Source of the DNA: Lachnospiraceae bacterium
Lineage (GTDB): Bacteria > Bacillota > Clostridia > Lachnospirales > Lachnospiraceae
Length of the DNA stretch: 64,000 nt
Assembly: GCA_021770755.1 (NCBI GenBank)
Contig: JAETQI010000009.1
Coordinates: 1-64,000, forward strand
Direction of reading: 5' to 3'
The notes beneath the pieces were generated by a model. The model saw only the letters and a program-made list of their open reading frames with translations. It was not told the origin of the DNA and searched no databases. Position 1 is the stretch's first letter; the number at the start of each line of letters is the position of its first letter. The position numbers were made by a program, and so were the translations under genes. Positions 43,478-54,507 of the stretch are shown here, in pieces.

Positions 43478-44986
43478 ATGGCAAAACTTTACATCAATGA
43501 AAAGAACAAAAAAGGACACATCAACGCGGAGATCTACGGAAATTTTTCAGAGCATCTCGGACGCTGCATCTACGAGGGGATCTATGTGGGAGAAGACTCT
43601 GAGATCCCCAACACAAACGGAATGCGAAATGATGTCGTGGCGGCTCTGCGCGAGATGAAGCTGCCGGTACTGCGCTGGCCGGGCGGATGCTTTGCCGATG
43701 AGTATCACTGGATGGACGGCATCGGGCCAAAAGATTCGAGAAAGAAAATGATCAACACGAACTGGGGCGGTGTGACGGAAGATAACAGCTTTGGCACCCA
43801 TGAGTTCTTTGAGCTGTGCGAACAGATCGGCTGCAAGACATACATCAACGGCAATGTCGGCAGCGGCACGGTGCAGGAGATGTCCGAGTGGGTGGAGTAC
43901 ATGACGTTTGACGGTGTCTCTCCCATGGCAGAGCTTCGGAAACAGAACGGCCATGAGAAGGCATGGCATGTTGATTATTTCGGCGTGGGCAATGAGAACT
44001 GGGGCTGCGGCGGAAACATGACGCCGGGCTACTATGCCAACTTATATAGAAGATATCAGACTTTTGTGAGAAATTACAAAAAGGACCAGAAGATCTTTAA
44101 GATCTGCGGCGGTCCCAATGTGGACGACACCTACTGGACGGAGGAAGTGTTAAAGACCTGCTATGAAAATGCGCCGGATGGCTCCCATGGGTTTATGGAC
44201 GGGTTGTCCATGCACTATTATGTACACCCCGAAGGCTGGGAGAAGAAAGGCAGCGCCACAAAGTTTGACGAGAAGACATGGTACAAGACGCTGTACAAGG
44301 CATTGTATATAGAAGAATTGATCAAGATGCACACCAACATCATGGACAAATATGATCCTGAGAAGAAGATCGGACTGATCTGTGACGAGTGGGGAACGTG
44401 GTTTACCTGCGAGCCGGGGACGAATCCGGGATTTTTATATCAGCAGAGCACCATGCGCGACGCGCTGGTGGCAGGGCTCTCGCTCAACGTGTTCAACAAG
44501 CACTGCGACCGCGTGAAGATGGCGAACATCGCGCAGTTGGTCAATGTGCTCCAGGCAGTGATTCTCACCGACGGACCAAAGATGCTGCTCACACCGACAT
44601 ACCACGTATTCCATATGTACAGGTATCATCAGGATGCGGAGCTTGTCGACAGTTATCTTGAAGGCGCAAAAGAGATCGGCATGGACGAGGACTACATGGT
44701 TCCGAACATCCAGGAGTCTGTCTCCGTTGACAAGGACGGCGTGGTGACGATCACCCTGAACAATCTTTCTGTCACAGACAGCGAGGTGATGGAGATCGCT
44801 TTTGCAGAACTCATGCCAGGCGAAGTGACAGCGGCGATCGTGACGAATCAGATGGACGCGTACAATACCTTTGACGAGCCTGACAAGGTGAAGGAAACTG
44901 CGTTTAATGATTTTCAGATCATTGACAAGGGGATCACTTTCACGATGCCCGCGTGCAGTGTCGTGCAGTTCCGCGTGAAAAAGTGA
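43478..44986 (+). CDS. abfA: Alpha-L-arabinofuranosidase, GH51
   Basis: 502 residues, the standard intracellular GH51 size and layout: a TIM barrel then a C-terminal beta domain. The acid/base Glu173 is in [12 protein letters not shown], the nucleophile Glu304 in ICDEWGTWF. The N-terminal [18 protein letters not shown] and [13 protein letters not shown] motifs are diagnostic. It removes arabinose from arabinan or arabinoxylan fragments. No signal peptide. AGGAGG precedes the ATG. Confidence 0.94.
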
Positions 44987-45051
44987 AATGGCAGTATGCC
45001 CGCATAAAGAGAATGGGATCTGGGATTCAGATGAAGATGGAGGAGAAAGCC

Positions 45052-45321
45052 TTGGAGACAAACGGACAAGGGGCAGACAAAAGGCACTGTCGAAAGTGCC
45101 TCCTGCGCGAGATGGACAAGGAAGCCTACATGGACAATCTATACGACTACATCCGGAGACTGGATGAGGATATCAAAGCTGATCAGGCGCTCTACGAGGA
45201 GCGCCTGTCTGTCTGTAAGGCGTGTGACTATCTGGAGGCAGGCATGTGCAGGGCGTGCGGGTGCTTCGTGGAGCTGCGCGCAGTGATCCGGGACAACGTG
45301 TGCTCTTACGGGAAGTGGTGA
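45052..45321 (+). CDS. DUF6171-like small cysteine-rich protein
   Basis: 89 residues from a TTG at 45052 that has GGAGGAG 6 nt upstream; ATG 45031 is an alternative. CRKCLL, then a helical charged middle with YDYIRRLDEDIKAD, then CKACDYLEAGMCRACGCFVELR and a final CSYGKW. The paired Cys suggest a zinc-bound treble-clef-like site. Function unknown. It stands 65 nt after abfA and before the fatty acid promoter. Confidence 0.65.
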   Translation: METNGQGADKRHCRKCLLREMDKEAYMDNLYDYIRRLDEDIKADQALYEERLSVCKACDYLEAGMCRACGCFVELRAVIRDNVCSYGKW

Positions 45322-45582: not shown

Positions 45583-45816
45583 ATGTCAGAAAAGATTAGA
45601 GAGATCATCGAGGGACAGCTTAACATTGAGGGCGTGGAGATCACGGAGGAGACACGTTTCAAGGAGGATCTGAACGCGGATTCGCTCGATCTGTTCGAGC
45701 TTGTGGACGCATTTCAGGAGGAGTACGGCGTGGAGATCCCGCCCGAGGATTTAGAGCAGATCACAACAGTCGGCGCCATCATCAAGTATCTGCAGGATAA
45801 AGGTGTCGAGGTGTAG
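45583..45816 (+). CDS. acpP: Acyl carrier protein
   Basis: 77 residues, acidic, four-helix. The phosphopantetheine Ser34 is in the DLNADSLDLFELV motif. It carries growing acyl chains between the Fab enzymes encoded after it. AGAAAGGATG lies upstream; first gene of the operon, with a long AT-rich leader behind the FabT boxes. Confidence 0.95.
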   Translation: MSEKIREIIEGQLNIEGVEITEETRFKEDLNADSLDLFELVDAFQEEYGVEIPPEDLEQITTVGAIIKYLQDKGVEV

Positions 45817-45828
45817 TCAGGAGCTTGC

Positions 45829-46776
45829 ATGAAAACAAGAATCACAGAACTTTTAGGAATTGAATATCCGGTCATACAGGGCGGCATGGCATGGGTGGCG
45901 GAGCACAATCTGGCCGCGGCAGTGTCAGAGGCCGGCGGGCTGGGGATCATCGGCGCGGGCGGCGCGCCGGCGGAATTTGTGAGAGAGCAGATCCGGAAAG
46001 TAAAGGAAGCGACAGACAGACCCTTTGGCGTCAACATCATGCTGATGAATCCGGAGGCGGATGCGATCGCGCAGGTGGTTGTCGACGAGGGTGTCAAAGT
46101 CGTCACGACCGGAGCCGGGAATCCGTCTGGGTACATGGAGATGTGGAAGCGGGCGGGCGTCAAAGTCATTCCGGTGATCGCGAGTGTCGCGATGGCGAAG
46201 CTGATGCAGCGCGGCGGCGCGGACGCAGTCGTCGCCGAAGGCATGGAGAGCGGCGGACATATCGGTTCGCTCACGACCATGGCGCTCGTGCCGCAGGTGG
46301 CGGACGCAGTGGAGATCCCGGTGATCGCGGCGGGCGGTATCGCGGACGGCAGAGGATTTGCGGCAGCGTTCATGCTGGGCGCGGAGGCAGTGCAGATCGG
46401 CACGCGCTTTGTGGCGGCAGCGGAATCCATCGTACATGAGAATTACAAGGCGATGCTCATCAAGGCAAAGGATATCGACTCTGCAGTCACGGGCATGACG
46501 ACCGGACACCCTGTCAGGAGCATCCGCAATAAGATGACGCGCGAGTACCTGAGACTTGAGCAGGAGGGCGCGGATTTTATGGAGCTTGAAAAGCTGACGC
46601 TCGGTTCTCTTAAGAAAGCTGTCGTGGAGGGCGATGTGGTGAACGGTACAGTCATGGCAGGGCAGATCGCGGGACTTGTGAAGAAAGAACAGCCGTGCAG
46701 GGAGATCATCACTGAGATCATGGAGCAGGGCATGGCGCTCCTTGGCAGGACATATGGAACAGGGCACATAGAATAA
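45829..46776 (+). CDS. fabK: Enoyl-ACP reductase II (FMN type)
   Basis: 315 residues. FabK features: YPVIQGGMAWVAEHNLAAAV at the N-terminus, GVNIMLMNPEADAIAQVVVDEGVKVV, EGMESGGHIGSLTTMALVPQV with the conserved His, and VIAAGGIADGRGFAAAFMLGA FMN-phosphate loop. It carries out the last reduction of each elongation cycle using NAD(P)H. It begins 12 nt after acpP. A second, clearly different FMN oxidoreductase follows further down the operon, so this one is the likely true FabK. Confidence 0.92.
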   Translation: MKTRITELLGIEYPVIQGGMAWVAEHNLAAAVSEAGGLGIIGAGGAPAEFVREQIRKVKEATDRPFGVNIMLMNPEADAIAQVVVDEGVKVVTTGAGNPSGYMEMWKRAGVKVIPVIASVAMAKLMQRGGADAVVAEGMESGGHIGSLTTMALVPQVADAVEIPVIAAGGIADGRGFAAAFMLGAEAVQIGTRFVAAAESIVHENYKAMLIKAKDIDSAVTGMTTGHPVRSIRNKMTREYLRLEQEGADFMELEKLTLGSLKKAVVEGDVVNGTVMAGQIAGLVKKEQPCREIITEIMEQGMALLGRTYGTGHIE

Positions 46777-46788
46777 GAAAGGCAAACA

Positions 46789-47712
46789 ATGAGCAGAACA
46801 GCATTTATTTTCCCGGGACAGGGTTCACAGTATGTGGGCATGGGAAAGGATTTTTATGATACATATGAGGAAGCAAAGCGTGTCTACCGGCTGGCGGGCG
46901 AAGTGTCGGGACTGGATATGGAGGCGCTCTGCTTCACGGAAAATGACAGGCTCAACATCACAGAGTACACGCAGATCGCGATGCTCGCCACAGAGGTGGC
47001 GATCCTTAAGGTGCTCGAGCAAAAGGGCGTCAGGGCGGATATCACGGCGGGTCTGAGCCTGGGTGAGTACGGCGCGCTGGCAGCGGCGGATGTCATGGAT
47101 CTAAAGGATCTGTTTTACATTATCCGAAAGCGCGGGATCTTTATGCAGGAGGCGTATCCGGAAGGCGGCGCCATGACAGCGGTGCTTGGTCTTGCGAGCG
47201 ATACGATCGAGGAGATCTGCCGCCAGACAAAAGGGATCGTGACCATCGCAAACTACAACTGTCCTGGTCAGATCGTCATCACAGGCGAGGCGGGTGCAGT
47301 GTCGGAGGCGGCAAAAGCACTCTCCGATGCCGGCGCAAAGCGCTGCGTGCCGCTCAAGGTCAGCGGACCGTTCCACTCCCGGCTGCTTGCCGGCGCAGGC
47401 GACAGGCTTGAGAAGGAACTGTACGGTATCAGGCTCAGACAGCCTTCCATCCCGTACATCAGCAATGTAAACGCGCTTGAGGTGACAGAGGCCGCGCCAG
47501 TCAAGTCTCTTCTGAAAGATCAGGTGTCAAACTCCGTGTGCTGGCAGCAGACGATCGAGAAGATGATCGCGGGCGGTGTCGATACGTTTATAGAGATCGG
47601 GCCGGGAAGGACGCTCAGCGGCTTTGTCAAAAAGATCAGCAAGGATGTGAAATGCCTGAATATCGACAAGCTGGCTGACATGGATAAAGCATTGGAGGAA
47701 TCGGGATGTTAA
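46789..47712 (+). CDS. fabD: Malonyl-CoA:ACP transacylase
   Basis: 307 residues. IFPGQGSQYVGMGKD start, nucleophile Ser90 in GLSLGEYGAL, catalytic His in VSGPFHSRLL, and EIGPGRTLSGF at the end. It loads malonyl units on ACP. Its end overlaps the fabG start by 7 nt, indicating translational coupling. Confidence 0.95.
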   Translation: MSRTAFIFPGQGSQYVGMGKDFYDTYEEAKRVYRLAGEVSGLDMEALCFTENDRLNITEYTQIAMLATEVAILKVLEQKGVRADITAGLSLGEYGALAAADVMDLKDLFYIIRKRGIFMQEAYPEGGAMTAVLGLASDTIEEICRQTKGIVTIANYNCPGQIVITGEAGAVSEAAKALSDAGAKRCVPLKVSGPFHSRLLAGAGDRLEKELYGIRLRQPSIPYISNVNALEVTEAAPVKSLLKDQVSNSVCWQQTIEKMIAGGVDTFIEIGPGRTLSGFVKKISKDVKCLNIDKLADMDKALEESGC

Positions 47713-48446
47713 CGGGTAAGGTAGCCCTTGTGACAGGGGCAGGCAGAGGTATTGGCAGTGCGGTCGCACGCATGCTGGCAAAAAACGGCGCGACGGTCAT
47801 CGTGAACTATAACGGTTCAAGGGAGAGCGCGGAGGCGGTTGTCGCCGGGATCGAGCGGGACGGCGGCAGTGCGGAGGCAATGCAGTGCAACGTGTCTGAT
47901 TTTGCGTCCAGCGAGACATTTGTCAAGGCGGTTCTGGAAAAGTACAAGAAGGTGGATATCCTTGTCAACAATGCGGGTATTACCAGGGATAACCTGATCA
48001 TGCGCATGTCCGAGGAGGATTACGATGCGGTGCTCGACACGAACCTAAAGGGTGCCTTTAACATGATCCGCCATCTCTCGCGCAGCATGGTCCGGCAGAG
48101 AAGCGGGAAGATCATCAACATTTCTTCGGTGAGCGGTATCCTGGGAAACGCGGGACAGTCGAACTATTCCGCGTCAAAGGCGGGGCTGATCGGTCTTACC
48201 AGGAGCGTCGCAAGAGAGCTTGCGGGCAGGGGGATCAATGTCAATGCGGTAGCGCCGGGATTTATCGATACGGATATGACCAGAAATATGACAGAAGAAG
48301 CTAAGAAGGCGCTCAATGGCATGATCCCCATGGGAAAGATGGGAAGTGCGGAGGATATCGCGGATCTCGTCCTGTTTCTGGCGGGAGAGCACTCGGACTA
48401 TATCACCGGACAGGTGATCTGCGTGGATGGCGGCATGGCGATGTGA
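47706..48446 (+). CDS. fabG: 3-oxoacyl-ACP reductase
   Basis: 246 residues, a classical short-chain dehydrogenase. NADPH loop VTGAGRGIGSAVA, NNAGITRDNL, catalytic Ser in NISSVSGILGNAG, and YSASKAG with the Tyr-Lys pair. It reduces 3-ketoacyl-ACP. ATG 47706 overlaps the end of fabD. Confidence 0.95.
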   Translation: MLTGKVALVTGAGRGIGSAVARMLAKNGATVIVNYNGSRESAEAVVAGIERDGGSAEAMQCNVSDFASSETFVKAVLEKYKKVDILVNNAGITRDNLIMRMSEEDYDAVLDTNLKGAFNMIRHLSRSMVRQRSGKIINISSVSGILGNAGQSNYSASKAGLIGLTRSVARELAGRGINVNAVAPGFIDTDMTRNMTEEAKKALNGMIPMGKMGSAEDIADLVLFLAGEHSDYITGQVICVDGGMAM

Positions 48447-48486
48447 GCCGTCCGGCGGTAACAGTTCGAAGGGAAAGGATGAGGGT

Positions 48487-49728
48487 ATGAAGAGAAGAGT
48501 AGTTGTAACAGGCATGGGGGCAGTGACCCCGATCGGCAACGACGTCGCGTCTTTCTGGGACGGCGTGAAGGCGGGAAAGACCGGCTTTGGACCGATCACC
48601 TATTTTGATACATCGGACTACAAATGCAAGCTGGCGGCGGAGGTCAAGGACTTTAACGCGGCCGATCACATGGACAAAAAAGCCGCGCGCAGGATGGAGC
48701 CTTTCTGCCAGTTTGCGGTTGCGGCGGCAAAGGAAGCGGTCGGGGACGCTGGTCTGGACATGACAAAAGAGGATCCCTACAGGGCAGGCTGCGCGGTGGG
48801 AAGCGGCATCGGAAGCCTGCAGGCGATGGAGCGGGAACACACCAGGCTGGTGGAAAAAGGACCTTCCAGAGTGGCGCCGCTTTTGGTCCCGCTGATGATC
48901 TCCAACATGGCGGCCGGAAATGTCAGCATCGCGCTCAATCTCAAGGGCAAGAGCATCAATGTGGTGACGGCATGTGCCACGGGTACGAACTCCATCGGCG
49001 AGGCGTTCCGGACGATCCAGTACGGTGACGCGGATATCATGGTGGCGGGCGGAACGGAGAGCTCGATCACGCCGATCGGGATTGCGGGATTTTCATCCCT
49101 GACAGCGCTCTCGACCTGTGAGGATCCGGCGCGCTGTTCGATTCCGTTTGACAAGGACAGAAGCGGTTTTGTCATGGGCGAGGGTGCGGGCATTGTCGTG
49201 CTTGAGGAGCTGGAGCACGCCAGGGCGCGCGGCGCAAAGATCTATGCGGAGGTTGTGGGATATGGCTGCTCATCGGACGCGTACCACATCACATCGCCGG
49301 CGGAGGACGGCGCGGGAGCGGCGGCGGCGATGCTTGGCGCCGTGAGGGATGCAGGCGCCTTGCCCGAGGAGATCACGTATATCAACGCCCACGGAACGGC
49401 GACACATCACAACGATCTGTTTGAGACGAGGGCGATCAAGCTTGCGTTTGGCGACCATGCAAAGAAGATCAGGATCAACTCTACCAAATCGATGGTAGGG
49501 CATCTTTTGGGCGCGGCGGGGGCAGTCGAGTTTGTCGCCTGCGTGAAAGAGATCCAGGAGGGCTATATCCATCGGACAGTCGGACTCACAGCGTGCGAGG
49601 AGGAGATGGACTTAGACTACTGCAGGGAGAGCAGCAGCGGTGACTTTATGTACGCACTCAGCAACTCCCTGGGATTTGGCGGACACAACGCGAGCATATT
49701 AGTGAAAAAATATGCGGAATCAATATGA
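48487..49728 (+). CDS. fabF: 3-oxoacyl-ACP synthase II
   Basis: 413 residues, thiolase fold. Nucleophile Cys163 in VVTACATGTNSI, His in INAHGTATHHND and His in TKSMVGHLLGAAG complete the Cys-His-His triad. It condenses malonyl-ACP with acyl-ACP. ATG 48487 follows GGGAAAGGATGAG; the frame extends upstream without a ribosome site. It is the only elongating condensing enzyme in the operon, no FabB being present. Confidence 0.95.
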   Translation: MKRRVVVTGMGAVTPIGNDVASFWDGVKAGKTGFGPITYFDTSDYKCKLAAEVKDFNAADHMDKKAARRMEPFCQFAVAAAKEAVGDAGLDMTKEDPYRAGCAVGSGIGSLQAMEREHTRLVEKGPSRVAPLLVPLMISNMAAGNVSIALNLKGKSINVVTACATGTNSIGEAFRTIQYGDADIMVAGGTESSITPIGIAGFSSLTALSTCEDPARCSIPFDKDRSGFVMGEGAGIVVLEELEHARARGAKIYAEVVGYGCSSDAYHITSPAEDGAGAAAAMLGAVRDAGALPEEITYINAHGTATHHNDLFETRAIKLAFGDHAKKIRINSTKSMVGHLLGAAGAVEFVACVKEIQEGYIHRTVGLTACEEEMDLDYCRESSSGDFMYALSNSLGFGGHNASILVKKYAESI

Positions 49729-49783
49729 GGAATAAATAGTTAGACAGAGCGTGTATTATATATAGAAGGAAAAGGTGACACAT

Positions 49784-50215
49784 ATGTCGGTTTATACAGC
49801 AAAGGAGATCATGGAAATCATCCCGCACAGACATCCGTTTCTGCTGATCGACACCATCGAGGAGCTCGAGGAAGGCGTAAGGGCAGTCGGGAAAAAGTGC
49901 GTGAGCTTTAATGAGCCGTATTTTGCAGGGCATTTCCCAGGCAATCCCGTCATGCCGGGCGTACTGATCGTGGAGGCGCTGGCGCAGGTCGGGGCGGTCG
50001 CGCTGCTGGGGCTTCCGGAGTGGAAGGGCAAGACGGCGTACTTTGCAGGGATCAACAAAGCGCGGTTCAAACAGAAGGTGCTGCCGGGCGATGTGCTGAT
50101 GCTTGAGACGAAGATCACGAAGGTGAGCGGGCCGATCGGTGTCGGCGAGGCGATCGCCACAGTCGACGGCAGGACAGCCTGCAGGGCGGAGCTGATGTTT
50201 GCCATAGGAGTCTAG
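49784..50215 (+). CDS. fabZ: 3-hydroxyacyl-ACP dehydratase
   Basis: 143 residues, hot-dog fold. [12 protein letters not shown] holds the catalytic His, and [20 protein letters not shown] holds the catalytic Glu. It dehydrates 3-hydroxyacyl-ACP to the trans-2-enoyl form. FabZ-type enzymes do not normally isomerise to cis-3, so unsaturated fatty acids need another enzyme. The start at 49784 has AAGGAAAAGGTG upstream. Confidence 0.94.
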
Positions 50216-50226
50216 GAGGTTGGATG

Positions 50227-51993
50227 ATGGAAAGATCACAGCATATCAGGACTGGAAGAAGATTTCCCGTTAATCTGTACAATAAGATAGAAGAAAAGCT
50301 GAAAAACAGGTCGGATGAAGCGCAGGAGGCGGCGACTGAAAAGAAAGAGGATACAGGACTCGTCAAGTGCCCTAAGTGCGGCAGGATGGTGGAGCGCGCC
50401 CGCGTGGTAAAGAAAAAATACGTGTGTTATGAGTGCGGCGGCTATTTCCGGGTGAAGACCAACAACCGGATCCGCATGGTCGCTGACGCGAAGAGCTTTG
50501 AGCCGTGGTTTGAGGACATGGCGGTGAGCAATCCGCTCGACTATGAGGGATATGAGGATAAGCTCGCGGCAGCGCGGGAGAAGACGGGGTTACAGGAGGC
50601 AGTGACTGTCGGGCGCTGCAAAGTGTTTGGTGACGACATCGTCCTTGGCGTGTGCGATTCCCGCTTTATGATGGCGAGTATGGGACATGTGGTGGGTGAG
50701 AAGATTACAAAGGCGATCGAGCGCGCGACGGAGTTAAAGCTTCCGGTATTCCTGTTCTGCTGTTCCGGCGGCGCGAGAATGCAGGAGGGGATCGTTTCGC
50801 TGATGCAGATGGCAAAGACATCGGCAGCGATCCGGCGGCACGGCGATGCCGGACTGCTGTACTGCACGATACTGACAGATCCCACGACGGGCGGCGTGAC
50901 GGCAAGCTTTGCGATGCTTGGCGATGTGATCATGGCAGAGCCGGGGGCGCTGATCGGTTTTGCAGGGCCAAGAGTGATCAAGCAGACGATCGGCCAGGAG
51001 CTTCCGGAGGGCTTTCAGACATCGGAATTTTTGGTGGAGCACGGGTTTGTGGACGGTATCGTGCTGCGGGAGAATTTGAAGAAGACGATCCATTTTCTGA
51101 TCCGGTCCCATCAGGGCACAGGCAGACAGCGGTACACCAACTTTTATCCGGGCACGGATTTTCAGTTTAAGCTCAGCGAGGAATTAAAAGAACAGACGTG
51201 GAAGTCCCGTCCGCGCAGTGCGTGGGAGAAAGTGAAGGCAGTCCGGCAGGTGGAGCGCCCGTCCGCGTTTGACTATATGGACAGCATATTTGACATCTTT
51301 GTCGAGGCGCATGGCGACAGGGGATTTGCCGACGACAAGGCACTGATCGGCGGTATCGCATTTCTTGAGGGGCAGCCGGTGACTGTGGTGGCGGACATCA
51401 AGGGCAAGGATTTCAAGGAATGCCAGGAGAGAAACTTCGGCATGCCGCTTCCTGAGGGCTACCGCAAGGCACTGCGCCTGATGAAGCAGGCGGAGAAATT
51501 CAACCGTCCGATCATCAGCTTTGTCAATACCTCCGGCGCATTCTGCGGTCTGGAGGCGGAGGAGCGCGGACAGGGCGAGGCGATCGCAAGAAACCTGCTG
51601 GAGATGTCGGGACTTAAGGTTCCGGTGCTGTGCATCCTGATCGGTGAGGGCGGCAGCGGCGGCGCGCTTGCGACGGCAGTCGGAAATGAAGTGTGGATGA
51701 TGGAGAATGCGACGTACTCGATCCTCTCGCCGGAAGGGTTCGCGTCGATCTTGTGGAAGGATTCCAACAGGGCGCAGGAGGCGAGCGAGGTCATGAACAT
51801 CACCGCACAGGACTTAAAACGTCTTGGCGTGATCGAGCGCATCATCCCGGAATTTGGCGGCGCGGACAAGAAGACGGCAGCGGCGATCGGCGGTTACATG
51901 AAGGAGCATATCAAGGAATTTCTGGAGAAGTATGACGGGAAGAGCGGAGAGCAGATCGCAGGCGAGCGCTATGAGCGTTTCCGCAATTTTTAG
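50227..51993 (+). CDS. accDA: Acetyl-CoA carboxylase carboxyltransferase, beta-alpha fusion
   Basis: 588 residues. Residues about 45-300 are AccD: a zinc ribbon with CPKCG and CYECGG, then [12 protein letters not shown] and a [17 protein letters not shown] core. Residues about 310-588 are Acc[21 protein letters not shown], a [10 protein letters not shown] strand, [16 protein letters not shown] and [11 protein letters not shown]. In most bacteria these are two genes; here there is one uninterrupted frame. The biotin carrier (accB) and biotin carboxylase (accC) are not in the operon. ATG 50227 has AGGAGG 7 nt upstream; ATG 50224 is also possible. Confidence 0.92.
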
Positions 51994-52004
51994 AGGACAG
52001 GATT

Positions 52005-53039
52005 ATGAGTGAGTTAAGGATAGGCAGTCTCTGCGCGCGCATTCCCGTGATACAGGGCGGCATGGGAGTCGGTGTGAGCCTGTCAGGTCTGGCGGGCGCA
52101 GTGGCGGCGGCAGGCGGCGTGGGTGTGATATCGACCGCCCAGATCGGCTACCGCGATCCCGACTTCGGCAGACATCCGATCGAGTGCAACCTAAAAGCGG
52201 TCGGTGAGGAGATCAGAAAGGCGCGCAGCGCGGCAGGCGGCGGTATCGTCGGCGTCAATATCATGGTGGTGACAAGGCGGTATGAGGACTATGTAAAGGC
52301 GGCGGTGTCAGCGGGTGCCGATCTGATCATATCCGGCGCGGGACTTCCCATGAATCTGCCGGAACTTGCAGGCGGCGCGGCGATCGCCCCGATCGTCTCG
52401 AGCAGGAAAGCGCTGCATGTGATCGCCAGGCACTGGAAAAAGAAGTATGACAGAAAACCGGATCTCGTTGTGGTCGAGGGACCTTTGGCGGGCGGACATC
52501 TTGGCTTCTCCAAAGAAGATATCGAGGCGTACACGGCGGCAAAGGAAAAGGATTATGACGATGAGGTGCGGTCGATCATAGCGCTCGCAGACGAGCTGGG
52601 AACACCGGTCGCGGTGGCGGGCGGCATCTATGGGCGCGGGGATATGGAGCATTATCTTGCGATGGGGGCAAAGGGTGTGCAGATCGCCACACGCTTTGTG
52701 ACGACGCGGGAATGCGATGCCTCCGAGGCATACAAACAGGCGTACATCGACGCGAAGCAGGAGGACATCGTCATCGTCAGAAGCCCGGTGGGAATGCCGG
52801 GGCGCGCGATACACAATGCGTTTCTTGACAGGGTACAGTCGGGAGAGCGCTTTATGAGAGGCTGCAGACAGTGCATCACGACGTGTAAGCCGGACACGGC
52901 GCCCTACTGCATCACGGAAGCGCTGATCAACGCGGTGGAGGGAAGGCTCGACGAGGGACTGATCTTCTGCGGGAGCAATGCCTACAGGGCGGACAGGATC
53001 GAGACCGTAGCCGATATAATGGAGGAATTTTCTCAATGA
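52005..53039 (+). CDS. FMN oxidoreductase of the nitronate monooxygenase/FabK family with Cys cluster; FabX-like candidate
   Basis: 344 residues. The TIM-barrel FMN fold is clear: IPVIQGGMGVGVSLSGLAGA, GVNIMVVTRRYEDY, VVVEGPLAGGHLGFS with the active-site His, VAVAGGIYGRGDMEHYLAMGA. Unlike FabK it has a C-terminal cluster GCRQCITTCKPDTAPYC, a CxxCxxxCx7C pattern suited to a [4Fe-4S] centre. FabX of Helicobacter pylori is an NMO-family enzyme with an iron-sulfur cluster that makes the double bond of unsaturated fatty acids by dehydrogenation and isomerisation. Position inside a fab operon that lacks FabA, FabM and FabN fits this. It lies 11 nt after accDA and overlaps fabH by 4 nt. Function remains inference. 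Confidence 0.75.
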   Translation: MSELRIGSLCARIPVIQGGMGVGVSLSGLAGAVAAAGGVGVISTAQIGYRDPDFGRHPIECNLKAVGEEIRKARSAAGGGIVGVNIMVVTRRYEDYVKAAVSAGADLIISGAGLPMNLPELAGGAAIAPIVSSRKALHVIARHWKKKYDRKPDLVVVEGPLAGGHLGFSKEDIEAYTAAKEKDYDDEVRSIIALADELGTPVAVAGGIYGRGDMEHYLAMGAKGVQIATRFVTTRECDASEAYKQAYIDAKQEDIVIVRSPVGMPGRAIHNAFLDRVQSGERFMRGCRQCITTCKPDTAPYCITEALINAVEGRLDEGLIFCGSNAYRADRIETVADIMEEFSQ

Positions 53040-54031
53040 CGATACAGATAACCGGAACAGGAAGTGCACTGCCGGAAAAAATAGTGACCAATTTTGACTT
53101 GGAGAAGCTGGTGGAGACCTCCGACGAGTGGATCCAGAAGCGGACCGGGATCGCAGAGCGCAGGATCTCTGCCGGGGAGACAGTGTCCTCACTGGCGGCG
53201 GACGCGTGCAGGAAAGCGCTGGAGATGGCAGGAAAGCGCGCAGATGAGGTGGATCTGATCCTCGTGGCGACCTGTTCCCCGGAGCTTCTGCTGCCGTGCT
53301 GCGCCTGCCAGGTGCAGGAGATGATCGGTGCCTCCTGCGCGGTGGCGTTTGACTTAAACGCCGCATGTTCGGGTTTTTTGTTCGCGCTCAACACAGCGTA
53401 TGCGTATCTCCATACCGGGATCTACCACAATGCGCTGGTGGTGGGAAGCGAGGTGCTGTCAAAGCTTGTGGACTGGAAGGACAGAGGTACCTGTATCCTG
53501 TTCGGAGACGGTGCAGGCGCGGCATTTGTGGAGGCGTCCGCGGAGGATATCGTCCGGGACAACGGGCGCAGGGCAGGCATGGAGTGCATGGTTCAGGGAT
53601 CAGACGGAACAAAGGGCATGGTGCTCTCCTGTGCGGAGCGCGCAGGGAACAATGCGTTCATCCCGGAAAACCCGCCGGAGAACCCGTATATCCATATGGA
53701 TGGACAGGAGGTCTACAAGTTTGCCACAAAACAGGTGCCGGCATGCATCCAGGATGCGCTGGACAGGGCAGGGCTTGCGGTGGACGATGTGGACTGGTTC
53801 ATGCTGCATCAGGCAAATGTCCGCATCATAGAGTCGGTCGCAAAGAGACTTCGGGCGGATATCGCAAGATTTCCGATGAATATACATAAGATCGGCAATA
53901 TGTCCTCCGCCACGATACCGGTGCTGCTCGACGAGTGGAACCGCAAGGGCAGCATCAAAACGGGCGACAGGCTGGTGCTGTCAGGATTTGGAGCCGGATT
54001 GACGTACGGCGCCAGCATACTTGTCTGGTAA
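53036..54031 (+). CDS. fabH: 3-oxoacyl-ACP synthase III
   Basis: 331 residues. Catalytic Cys111 in DLNAACSGFLFAL, His in WFMLHQANVRI and Asn in KIGNMSSATIPVLL. It starts chains by condensing acetyl- or branched acyl-CoA with malonyl-ACP. The ATG overlaps the stop of the preceding gene. fabH often heads such operons in Firmicutes; here it stands near the end. Confidence 0.94.
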   Translation: MTIQITGTGSALPEKIVTNFDLEKLVETSDEWIQKRTGIAERRISAGETVSSLAADACRKALEMAGKRADEVDLILVATCSPELLLPCCACQVQEMIGASCAVAFDLNAACSGFLFALNTAYAYLHTGIYHNALVVGSEVLSKLVDWKDRGTCILFGDGAGAAFVEASAEDIVRDNGRRAGMECMVQGSDGTKGMVLSCAERAGNNAFIPENPPENPYIHMDGQEVYKFATKQVPACIQDALDRAGLAVDDVDWFMLHQANVRIIESVAKRLRADIARFPMNIHKIGNMSSATIPVLLDEWNRKGSIKTGDRLVLSGFGAGLTYGASILVW

Positions 54032-54051: not shown

Positions 54052-54507
54052 ATGGAAAAGACGACGAGAAGGGTGTTGAATGAGACGCTGGTAAAGCTCT
54101 TCAACGATGTCATGAGCATCGAGGAGAAGGCGGTCATCACCGAGGAGTACAAGGATATCACGAACAATGACATGCATATCATCGAGGCGGTCGGGATCGA
54201 GGAACCGCGCAGGATGTCCGATATCGCAAAGCGCCTTGGCGTGACCATGGGCACGCTCACCACGAATATGAACAGCCTTGAGGAAAAGGGATACATCGTA
54301 CGGGAGCGGAGCACGGCAGACAAGCGGGTGGTGCTGGTCGTGCTCACACCCAAAGGAAAAAAAGCGTTCTACCATCACCGGGGATTCCACCAGAACATGA
54401 TCAAGGCGATCGTGAAAGGTCTCGACGAGGATGAGATGAAAGTGATGATCAAATGTCTCCTGAATCTGAATGAATTTTTTGAGCAGTATGCGCAGTCCTG
54501 TCATTGA
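54052..54507 (+). CDS. fabT: MarR family regulator, FabT-like
   Basis: 151 residues with a winged helix: MSDIAKRLGVTMGTLTTNMNSLEEKGYI and the wing RSTADKRVVLVVLTPKGKKA. N- and C-terminal helices form the dimer. FabT represses fatty acid synthesis genes when bound to long acyl-ACP. The three FabT-type boxes before acpP and its place in the operon support this identity; gene order differs from streptococci, where fabT comes first. GGGGGAAGG precedes the ATG. Confidence 0.82.
   Translation: MEKTTRRVLNETLVKLFNDVMSIEEKAVITEEYKDITNNDMHIIEAVGIEEPRRMSDIAKRLGVTMGTLTTNMNSLEEKGYIVRERSTADKRVVLVVLTPKGKKAFYHHRGFHQNMIKAIVKGLDEDEMKVMIKCLLNLNEFFEQYAQSCH

Follow-up and report, generated by a model that had tools for sequence, protein, structure and literature searches.

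The gene at positions 52005-53039 (+ strand) of the window, by which we mean the whole 64,000-nucleotide stretch of Lachnospiraceae bacterium DNA analysed here (assembly GCA_021770755.1, contig JAETQI010000009.1, positions 1 to 64,000), encodes a member of the FabX/UfaA family, a reading that is supported at the level of the family. It is a well-supported further member of a published family and not a new kind of enzyme. As its product is a close structural relative of Helicobacter FabX, the gene is the strongest candidate for encoding the enzyme that introduces the double bond into the membrane lipids of the presumably anaerobic host, and we consider it probable that its product is a FabX/UfaA-type acyl-ACP enzyme, with FMN and a predicted [4Fe-4S] cluster, that produces cis-3-decenoyl-ACP.

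The open reading frame is intact, begins with ATG and encodes an NMO-family FMN protein of 344 aa whose predicted [4Fe-4S] site consists of four cysteines spaced exactly as CxxCxxxCx7C (C287, C290, C294 and C302, codons checked), as a first-pass annotation of this DNA had noted in describing a second FMN enzyme with this motif inside a fab operon. According to NCBIfam names, the operon comprises, all on the + strand, acpP for the acyl carrier protein (45583-45816), fabK for the operon's enoyl-ACP reductase (45829-46776; 484.2 bits with TIGR03151, cut-off 453.1), fabD (46789-47712), fabG (47706-48446), fabF (48427-49728), fabZ, the presumed source of trans-2-decenoyl-ACP (49775-50215), accDA (50224-51993), the fabX-type gene, fabH (53036-54031) and a MarR regulator gene (54052-54507), which we call FabT-like only, since its best NCBIfam match, TransRegFabT, reaches 151.6 bits, below the cut-off of 200. 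A gap of 11 bp separates the accDA stop (51993) from the start of the fabX-type gene, which shares 4 bp with fabH, the overlap that the annotation had also pointed out. The accD and accA parts form one 589-aa ORF in the window (NCBIfam accD at residues 25-298, accA at 319-588); two Blautia loci (L050, L066) have a comparable single ORF of 570-572 aa where accD and accA would stand, and none of the genes named in the operon of the window is accB or accC.

Pfam places the protein in the NMO family (PF03060, 148.5 bits), and it obtains 104 bits with the FabK model TIGR03151, the cut-off of which is 453.1, in agreement with the earlier description of an NMO-family protein distinct from FabK. It has no match to PF07977, the FabA/FabZ family. 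The best sequence matches in the PDB are the Helicobacter pylori FabX entries (E about 3e-69), after which FabK and NMO chains follow from E of about 1e-17. AlphaFold2, given 26 sequences from the window and the loci, yielded a model with a mean pLDDT of 93.4, and the five best Foldseek hits are all FabX entries, with TM scores of 0.86-0.92 on the query (0.92 for 9lt5); FabK and NMO chains come next at about 0.65-0.73 (FabK 0.68-0.72).

In H. pylori FabX, as described in PMC8626469, the [4Fe-4S] ligands are C300, C304, C308 and C320, the catalytic His182 is held by Ser273, the side chains of N99, E175, Q240 and T243 contact FMN, and contacts with ACP are made on helix alpha7. Position mapping onto FabX recovers equivalents of all four cluster cysteines in the window protein, namely C287 (codon 52863-52865, aligned with C300), C290 (52872-52874, C304), C294 (52884-52886, C308) and C302 (52908-52910, C320), together with H165 (52497-52499) for His182 and S260 (52782-52784) for Ser273, all codons being on the + strand. 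The likeness to the FabX cluster that the annotation had suggested thus extends to each individual ligand. All four FMN side-chain contacts are also present, as is the basic alpha7 ACP-binding helix, in which the K152 and R164 positions correspond to K135 and K147.

The four cysteines are found in 116 of 116 aligned FabX-type rows (window included, the rows leaning to close relatives) and none of the four in 44 FabK sequences, so the cysteine pattern is not due to chance. The cysteine counts are based on 121 ORFs (29 from the class search, 80 from named loci and 12 lower-ranked) plus the window, and include L137, an N-terminally short ORF with the cysteines. The H182, S273, E175 and Q240 positions are likewise kept in every one of the 116 rows, while FabK has mostly Arg, Met or Thr at the Ser273 position; the T243 position is Thr in 100 rows and Ser in 16. 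At the K152 position a basic residue (K/R) occurs in all FabX-type rows, against Ala, Gly, Leu or Ile in FabK, and the R164 position is K, R or H in 114 of them, against a gap in FabK. Conservation does not extend to the FabX ACP contacts T130 and R160 in these 116 rows, and the Y277 position is Met in 107. Relatives from Fusobacterium, Parabacteroides, cyanobacteria, Cupriavidus and the gonococcus keep the four Cys, the His and the Ser, with the R164 position occupied by Lys in Neisseria and Cupriavidus, Ala in Fusobacterium and Asn in Parabacteroides and cyanobacteria. In the aligned sequences, the catalytic and PPant positions and several that contact ACP resemble FabX and not FabK.

A phylogenetic tree of 69 rows has FabK on one side of a branch supported at 100/100, and H. 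pylori FabX joins, with modest support (91/78) and on a long branch, two distant clostridial FabX-type proteins. In an enlarged tree, to which the Fusobacterium, Parabacteroides, cyanobacterial, Cupriavidus and gonococcal relatives were added, a 100/95 branch sets off 37 FabX/UfaA rows and FabK lies behind a 100/100 branch, the inner order of the FabX side being weakly supported. By sequence, FabK is set apart from a group that holds the window protein, FabX and the UfaA-type protein of the gonococcus.

In six genomes of two Clostridia families we saw an NMO subfamily of shorter proteins (315-327 aa), whose four cysteines follow CxxCxxxCx4C (L128 2036-2989, L129 1985-2932, L130 2057-3010, L131 1976-2923, L132 1991-2974 and L133 1947-2921). 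The genomes with this subfamily also carry FabK; in the three loci inspected its genes are not beside fab genes, and two of the three are near a gene that we take, from its sequence, to be DEAD-box-helicase-like. The six proteins fall on the FabX side of the 69-row tree and on the FabK side of the enlarged one, so that their position relative to FabX and FabK varies with the tree, and these six intermediates were counted apart from the FabX-type proteins.

The annotation had remarked that fabA, fabM and fabN are absent from the operon, and this holds for the operon and extends to the host genome, which is 97.7% complete. The sole FabA/FabZ-family (PF07977) gene found there is the operon fabZ, the whole-genome PF07977 search having returned no second member, as FabA, FabN or FabQ would be, and FA_desaturase (PF00487), the single desaturase family searched, has no match. 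One crotonase (PF00378) is present, flanked by ORFs that, from their sequences, are presumably thiolase-like and 3-hydroxyacyl-CoA-dehydrogenase-like. As it sits in such a thl-crt-hbd-like cluster, it is more likely the crt of a butyrate pathway, and we rejected it as fabM. The searches of the host genome thus found no FabA or FabN, no FA_desaturase and no convincing fabM.

A class-wide sample of 393 Clostridia genomes gave 96 matches, which were split by hand into 86 counted as FabX-type (E of 3.8e-56 or lower), 6 intermediate (E of about 3e-51 to 2e-43) and 4 FabK-like (E of 4e-24 or higher); counts in this sample were made from the matches as listed, which agree in number with the tallies (96, 199 and 295). 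A FabZ-family gene was found in 84 of the 86 carriers versus 211 of the 307 remaining genomes (Fisher p 7e-10, with no correction for relatedness), with two such genes in 4 of the 84 FabZ-positive carriers and none found in 2 carriers. Since the fabX-type gene is absent from 211 of the 295 Clostridia genomes with FabZ, Clostridia do not depend on it alone. It is carried by 104 of the 116 genomes of the Clostridium-like family to which G290 belongs, the G290 protein grouping with a named Clostridium locus at 91/90 in the 69-row tree. Two FabX-type copies were observed in 3 of these 116 genomes (G259, at C14:68876-69913 and C27:26617-27651, G410 and G482).

Named genomes were represented by the best 80 of 571 confirmed relatives, a set that leans to close relatives and includes Coprococcus comes and strains of Blautia, Roseburia, Dorea, Romboutsia and Clostridium. 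The closest locus in this set, from a Lachnospiraceae MAG, encodes a protein of 85% identity and has the same operon order. A same-strand fab or acc gene lies within 1.5 kb in 53 of these best 80 loci, accA is immediately upstream in 45 of them, and in Clostridium sp. CF012 (L111) the gene stands beside fabT-fabH-acpP-fabK. Among the gene families that occur in at least 8 of 81 stretches (the best 80 loci and the window, with the fabX ORF located in 79 of the 81), no recurrent electron carrier was found; the families other than fab and acc are, as we take them from their sequences, a Sir2-like protein, a membrane protein and one antisense ORF. In 10 of the 81 stretches the gene for the presumed Sir2-like protein and the fabX-type gene are no more than 3 kb apart (for instance L049 11148-11885). 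A small Cys-rich DUF6171 protein (PF19668) is encoded upstream of the acpP operon in the window (44953-45321), and another directly 5' of a stand-alone fabX in L075 (9547-9819); as a redox partner it was rejected, being near the gene in one of the best 80 of 571 loci.

Copies of the FabX/UfaA lineage also occur on cyanobacterial plasmids (L141 7992-9071 and L142 7986-9092), with psbA 1.7 kb from the L141 copy and adjacent to the L142 copy, and with heme oxygenase beside one of them. Cyanobacteria make unsaturated fatty acids (UFAs) with O2-using desaturases, and their possession of the gene counts against the proposed role in UFA synthesis. The surroundings of the plasmid copies recall low-oxygen gene sets; the copies are perhaps a backup for such desaturases. 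No relative of the protein was found in viral contigs. Phage records with a match number 18, one of them full-length at 49% identity (MT835927.1, 1235-2272), and this full-length copy in a record filed as phage is probably bacterial DNA.

We infer that the host's FabX-type gene serves UFA production, in the following way. C287, C290, C294 and C302 would hold a [4Fe-4S] cluster, in addition to the FMN of the enzyme. FabZ would make trans-2-decenoyl-ACP, the putative substrate, which the FabX-type enzyme would take before FabK reduces it and would isomerise, with no net redox, to cis-3-decenoyl-ACP by means of FMN, His165 and a bent substrate tunnel. This predicted product is the branch-point intermediate of anaerobic UFA synthesis, and FabF and the other enzymes of the operon would extend it to cis-unsaturated chains. 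Given the role in UFA synthesis, we lean towards this redox-neutral conversion of trans-2 to cis-3 as the chemistry of the enzyme. The host is presumably a fermenter and strict anaerobe, to judge from its relatives. The acyl/enoyl thioester couple lies at about -10 mV, far above NAD or ferredoxin, and flavin/Fe-S or flavin isomerases are known in 4-hydroxybutyryl-CoA dehydratase/vinylacetyl-CoA isomerase and type 2 IPP isomerase. As NAD and ferredoxin are too reducing to act as acceptor and O2 would be absent, redox-neutral isomerisation is favoured. H. pylori FabX dehydrogenates decanoyl-ACP using O2, with no other acceptor known in the account of PMC8626469, according to which the isomerisation step needs no O2. 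Because the H. pylori enzyme needs O2 and a fermenter would be without it, its mechanism cannot be transferred whole, and the proposal of a FabX-like UFA enzyme made in the first-pass annotation therefore stands for the family, on fold, residues and trees, and not for the O2-dependent mechanism. Among Lachnospiraceae, C18:1 cis-11 dimethyl acetal is recorded in Lacrimispora (PMC11316579) and C18:1 in Fusimonas (PMC5741734); PMC10989990 describes several members of the family by saturated major acids only, a point against the proposed role.

A chemistry closer to that of H. pylori, in which decanoyl-ACP is dehydrogenated to the trans-2 and then converted to the cis-3 form while the cluster passes electrons to an anaerobic acceptor, is the less likely of these two possibilities but one that we take seriously. 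The His, the Ser and all cluster ligands are retained in each of the 116 FabX-type proteins, and the FabX cluster stores electrons (PMC8626469); such strict conservation of the cluster argues for retained redox chemistry, for a pure isomerase would have no obvious need of it. Fusobacterium is an anaerobe (PMC12921513) and its FabX is sister to that of H. pylori, so that the need for O2 may not be general among FabX proteins. Dehydrogenation would, however, oblige a fermenter to use an unusual acceptor, given the high potential of the thioester couple, and among the gene families shared by 8 or more of the 81 stretches no electron carrier recurs beside the gene.

That the protein is a second enoyl-ACP reductase, a FabK paralogue in which the cluster replaces the NAD(P)H site, appears improbable to us. 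The two proteins share a fold family, and PMC11091888 reports that induction of fabX in F. nucleatum weakly protects from a FabK inhibitor (MIC 3.1 ug/mL, compared with 0.4 when an empty vector was induced), which could reflect some enoyl-reductase activity of FabX. In addition, seven Lachnospiraceae loci (three of them named Blautia; two read gene by gene) have the gene in an operon from which fabK is absent. Yet these seven genomes, in which neither FabK nor FabI was found, all have a FabV-family gene, and the three FabV-family proteins inspected (two from the seven and that of G120) pass the NCBIfam FabV cut-off. A separate enoyl reductase was found in 83 of the 86 carriers of the 393-genome sample: FabK in 70 (E of 1e-60 or lower, including the doubtful G055 with a weak match of 8e-72), otherwise FabI in 9, otherwise FabV in 4, the FabV search covering 15 genomes. 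No such reductase was found in three carriers, all drafts: in G315 the fabX-type copy is close to the end of a contig, and G059 and G083 are about 90% complete. These other reductases argue against a plain enoyl-reductase role for the FabX-type gene, and, together with the bit score far below the FabK cut-off, the residues and the tree, they led us to reject the FabK paralogue. That the protein is a plain nitronate monooxygenase, detoxifying nitronates and present in the operon by chance, as the Pfam family and the annotation of many database entries of relatives might suggest, is very improbable, for 53 of the best 80 of 571 loci have the gene beside fab or acc genes, several ACP- and PPant-contact residues are conserved, NMO chains of the PDB score far below FabX, and monooxygenation requires O2.

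The window protein resembles H. pylori FabX (HP0773; PDB 7e1q and 9lt5) in its fold (TM 0.92), FMN contacts, His182/Ser273 pair, four cluster cysteines and basic alpha7 ACP helix, and in the absence of FabA from the host genome, as PMC8626469 states for H. pylori. The two proteins differ in that they are 38-40% identical, that the cysteine spacing is CxxxCxxxCx11C in H. pylori and CxxCxxxCx7C here, that the window gene lies in a fab operon beside fabH, and that H. pylori FabX uses O2 (PMC8626469) whereas the window host is presumably a strict anaerobe. Neisseria gonorrhoeae UfaA (NGO1024) has the key residues and lies on the same side of the tree, but it is a 391-aa protein of 33% identity to that of the window; we took the gonococcal sequence in the comparison to be NGO1024 on the strength of similarity rather than of a locus tag. 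Fusobacterium FabX (C4N14_08920 type) likewise comes from an anaerobe and has the four Cys and the same key residues except R164, but is sister to H. pylori FabX (100/100) and, over 73% of the window protein, is 38.8% identical to it; its role in UFA synthesis is assumed in PMC11091888. FabK shares the FMN TIM barrel, the catalytic His and the fab operon, and is distinguished by lacking the cluster Cys (0 of 44 sequences), by listed residues at position 273 that do not include Ser, by the missing ACP-helix extension and by its separate clade. Bacteroidales FabX is about 40% identical to that of H. pylori and helps B. theta, not E. coli, under ceftriaxone (PMC11300592).

The idea of a FabX-type UFA enzyme in anaerobes, which the annotation had offered as filling a known gap in clostridial lipid synthesis, has precedents. 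PMC11300592 cites the gonococcal homologue NGO1024 as essential for anaerobic UFA synthesis, with an acceptor described there as unknown, and the title of Isabella and Clark (2011), cited in the same paper, speaks of 'obligate anaerobes that lack FabA'; the gonococcal protein is named UfaA in PMC4549310. FabX homologues of more than 50% identity are reported from 1650 species of 31 genera and 7 phyla, mostly of anaerobic life (PMC8626469). In the open-licence literature we found no publication in which a clostridial member was tested. The locus tag CAC3580 likewise had no match in that literature.

The anaerobic UFA pathway was first proposed in Clostridia, and a 2009 paper left open how these bacteria make the cis bond (PMC2700279). 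Known beforehand were FabX and gonococcal UfaA, already extended to obligate anaerobes lacking FabA. The present analysis adds the conservation of ligands and active site in clostridial members, membership of the operon, the presence of the gene in most genomes of the Clostridium-like family and the test of co-occurrence with enoyl reductases. As the gene is often in or next to a fab operon (53 of the best 80 of 571 loci) and present in 104 of 116 genomes of that family, how Clostridia make the cis bond becomes a matter for a simple knockout, and the occurrence of a FabX-type gene in Clostridia bears on the drug claims made for FabX.
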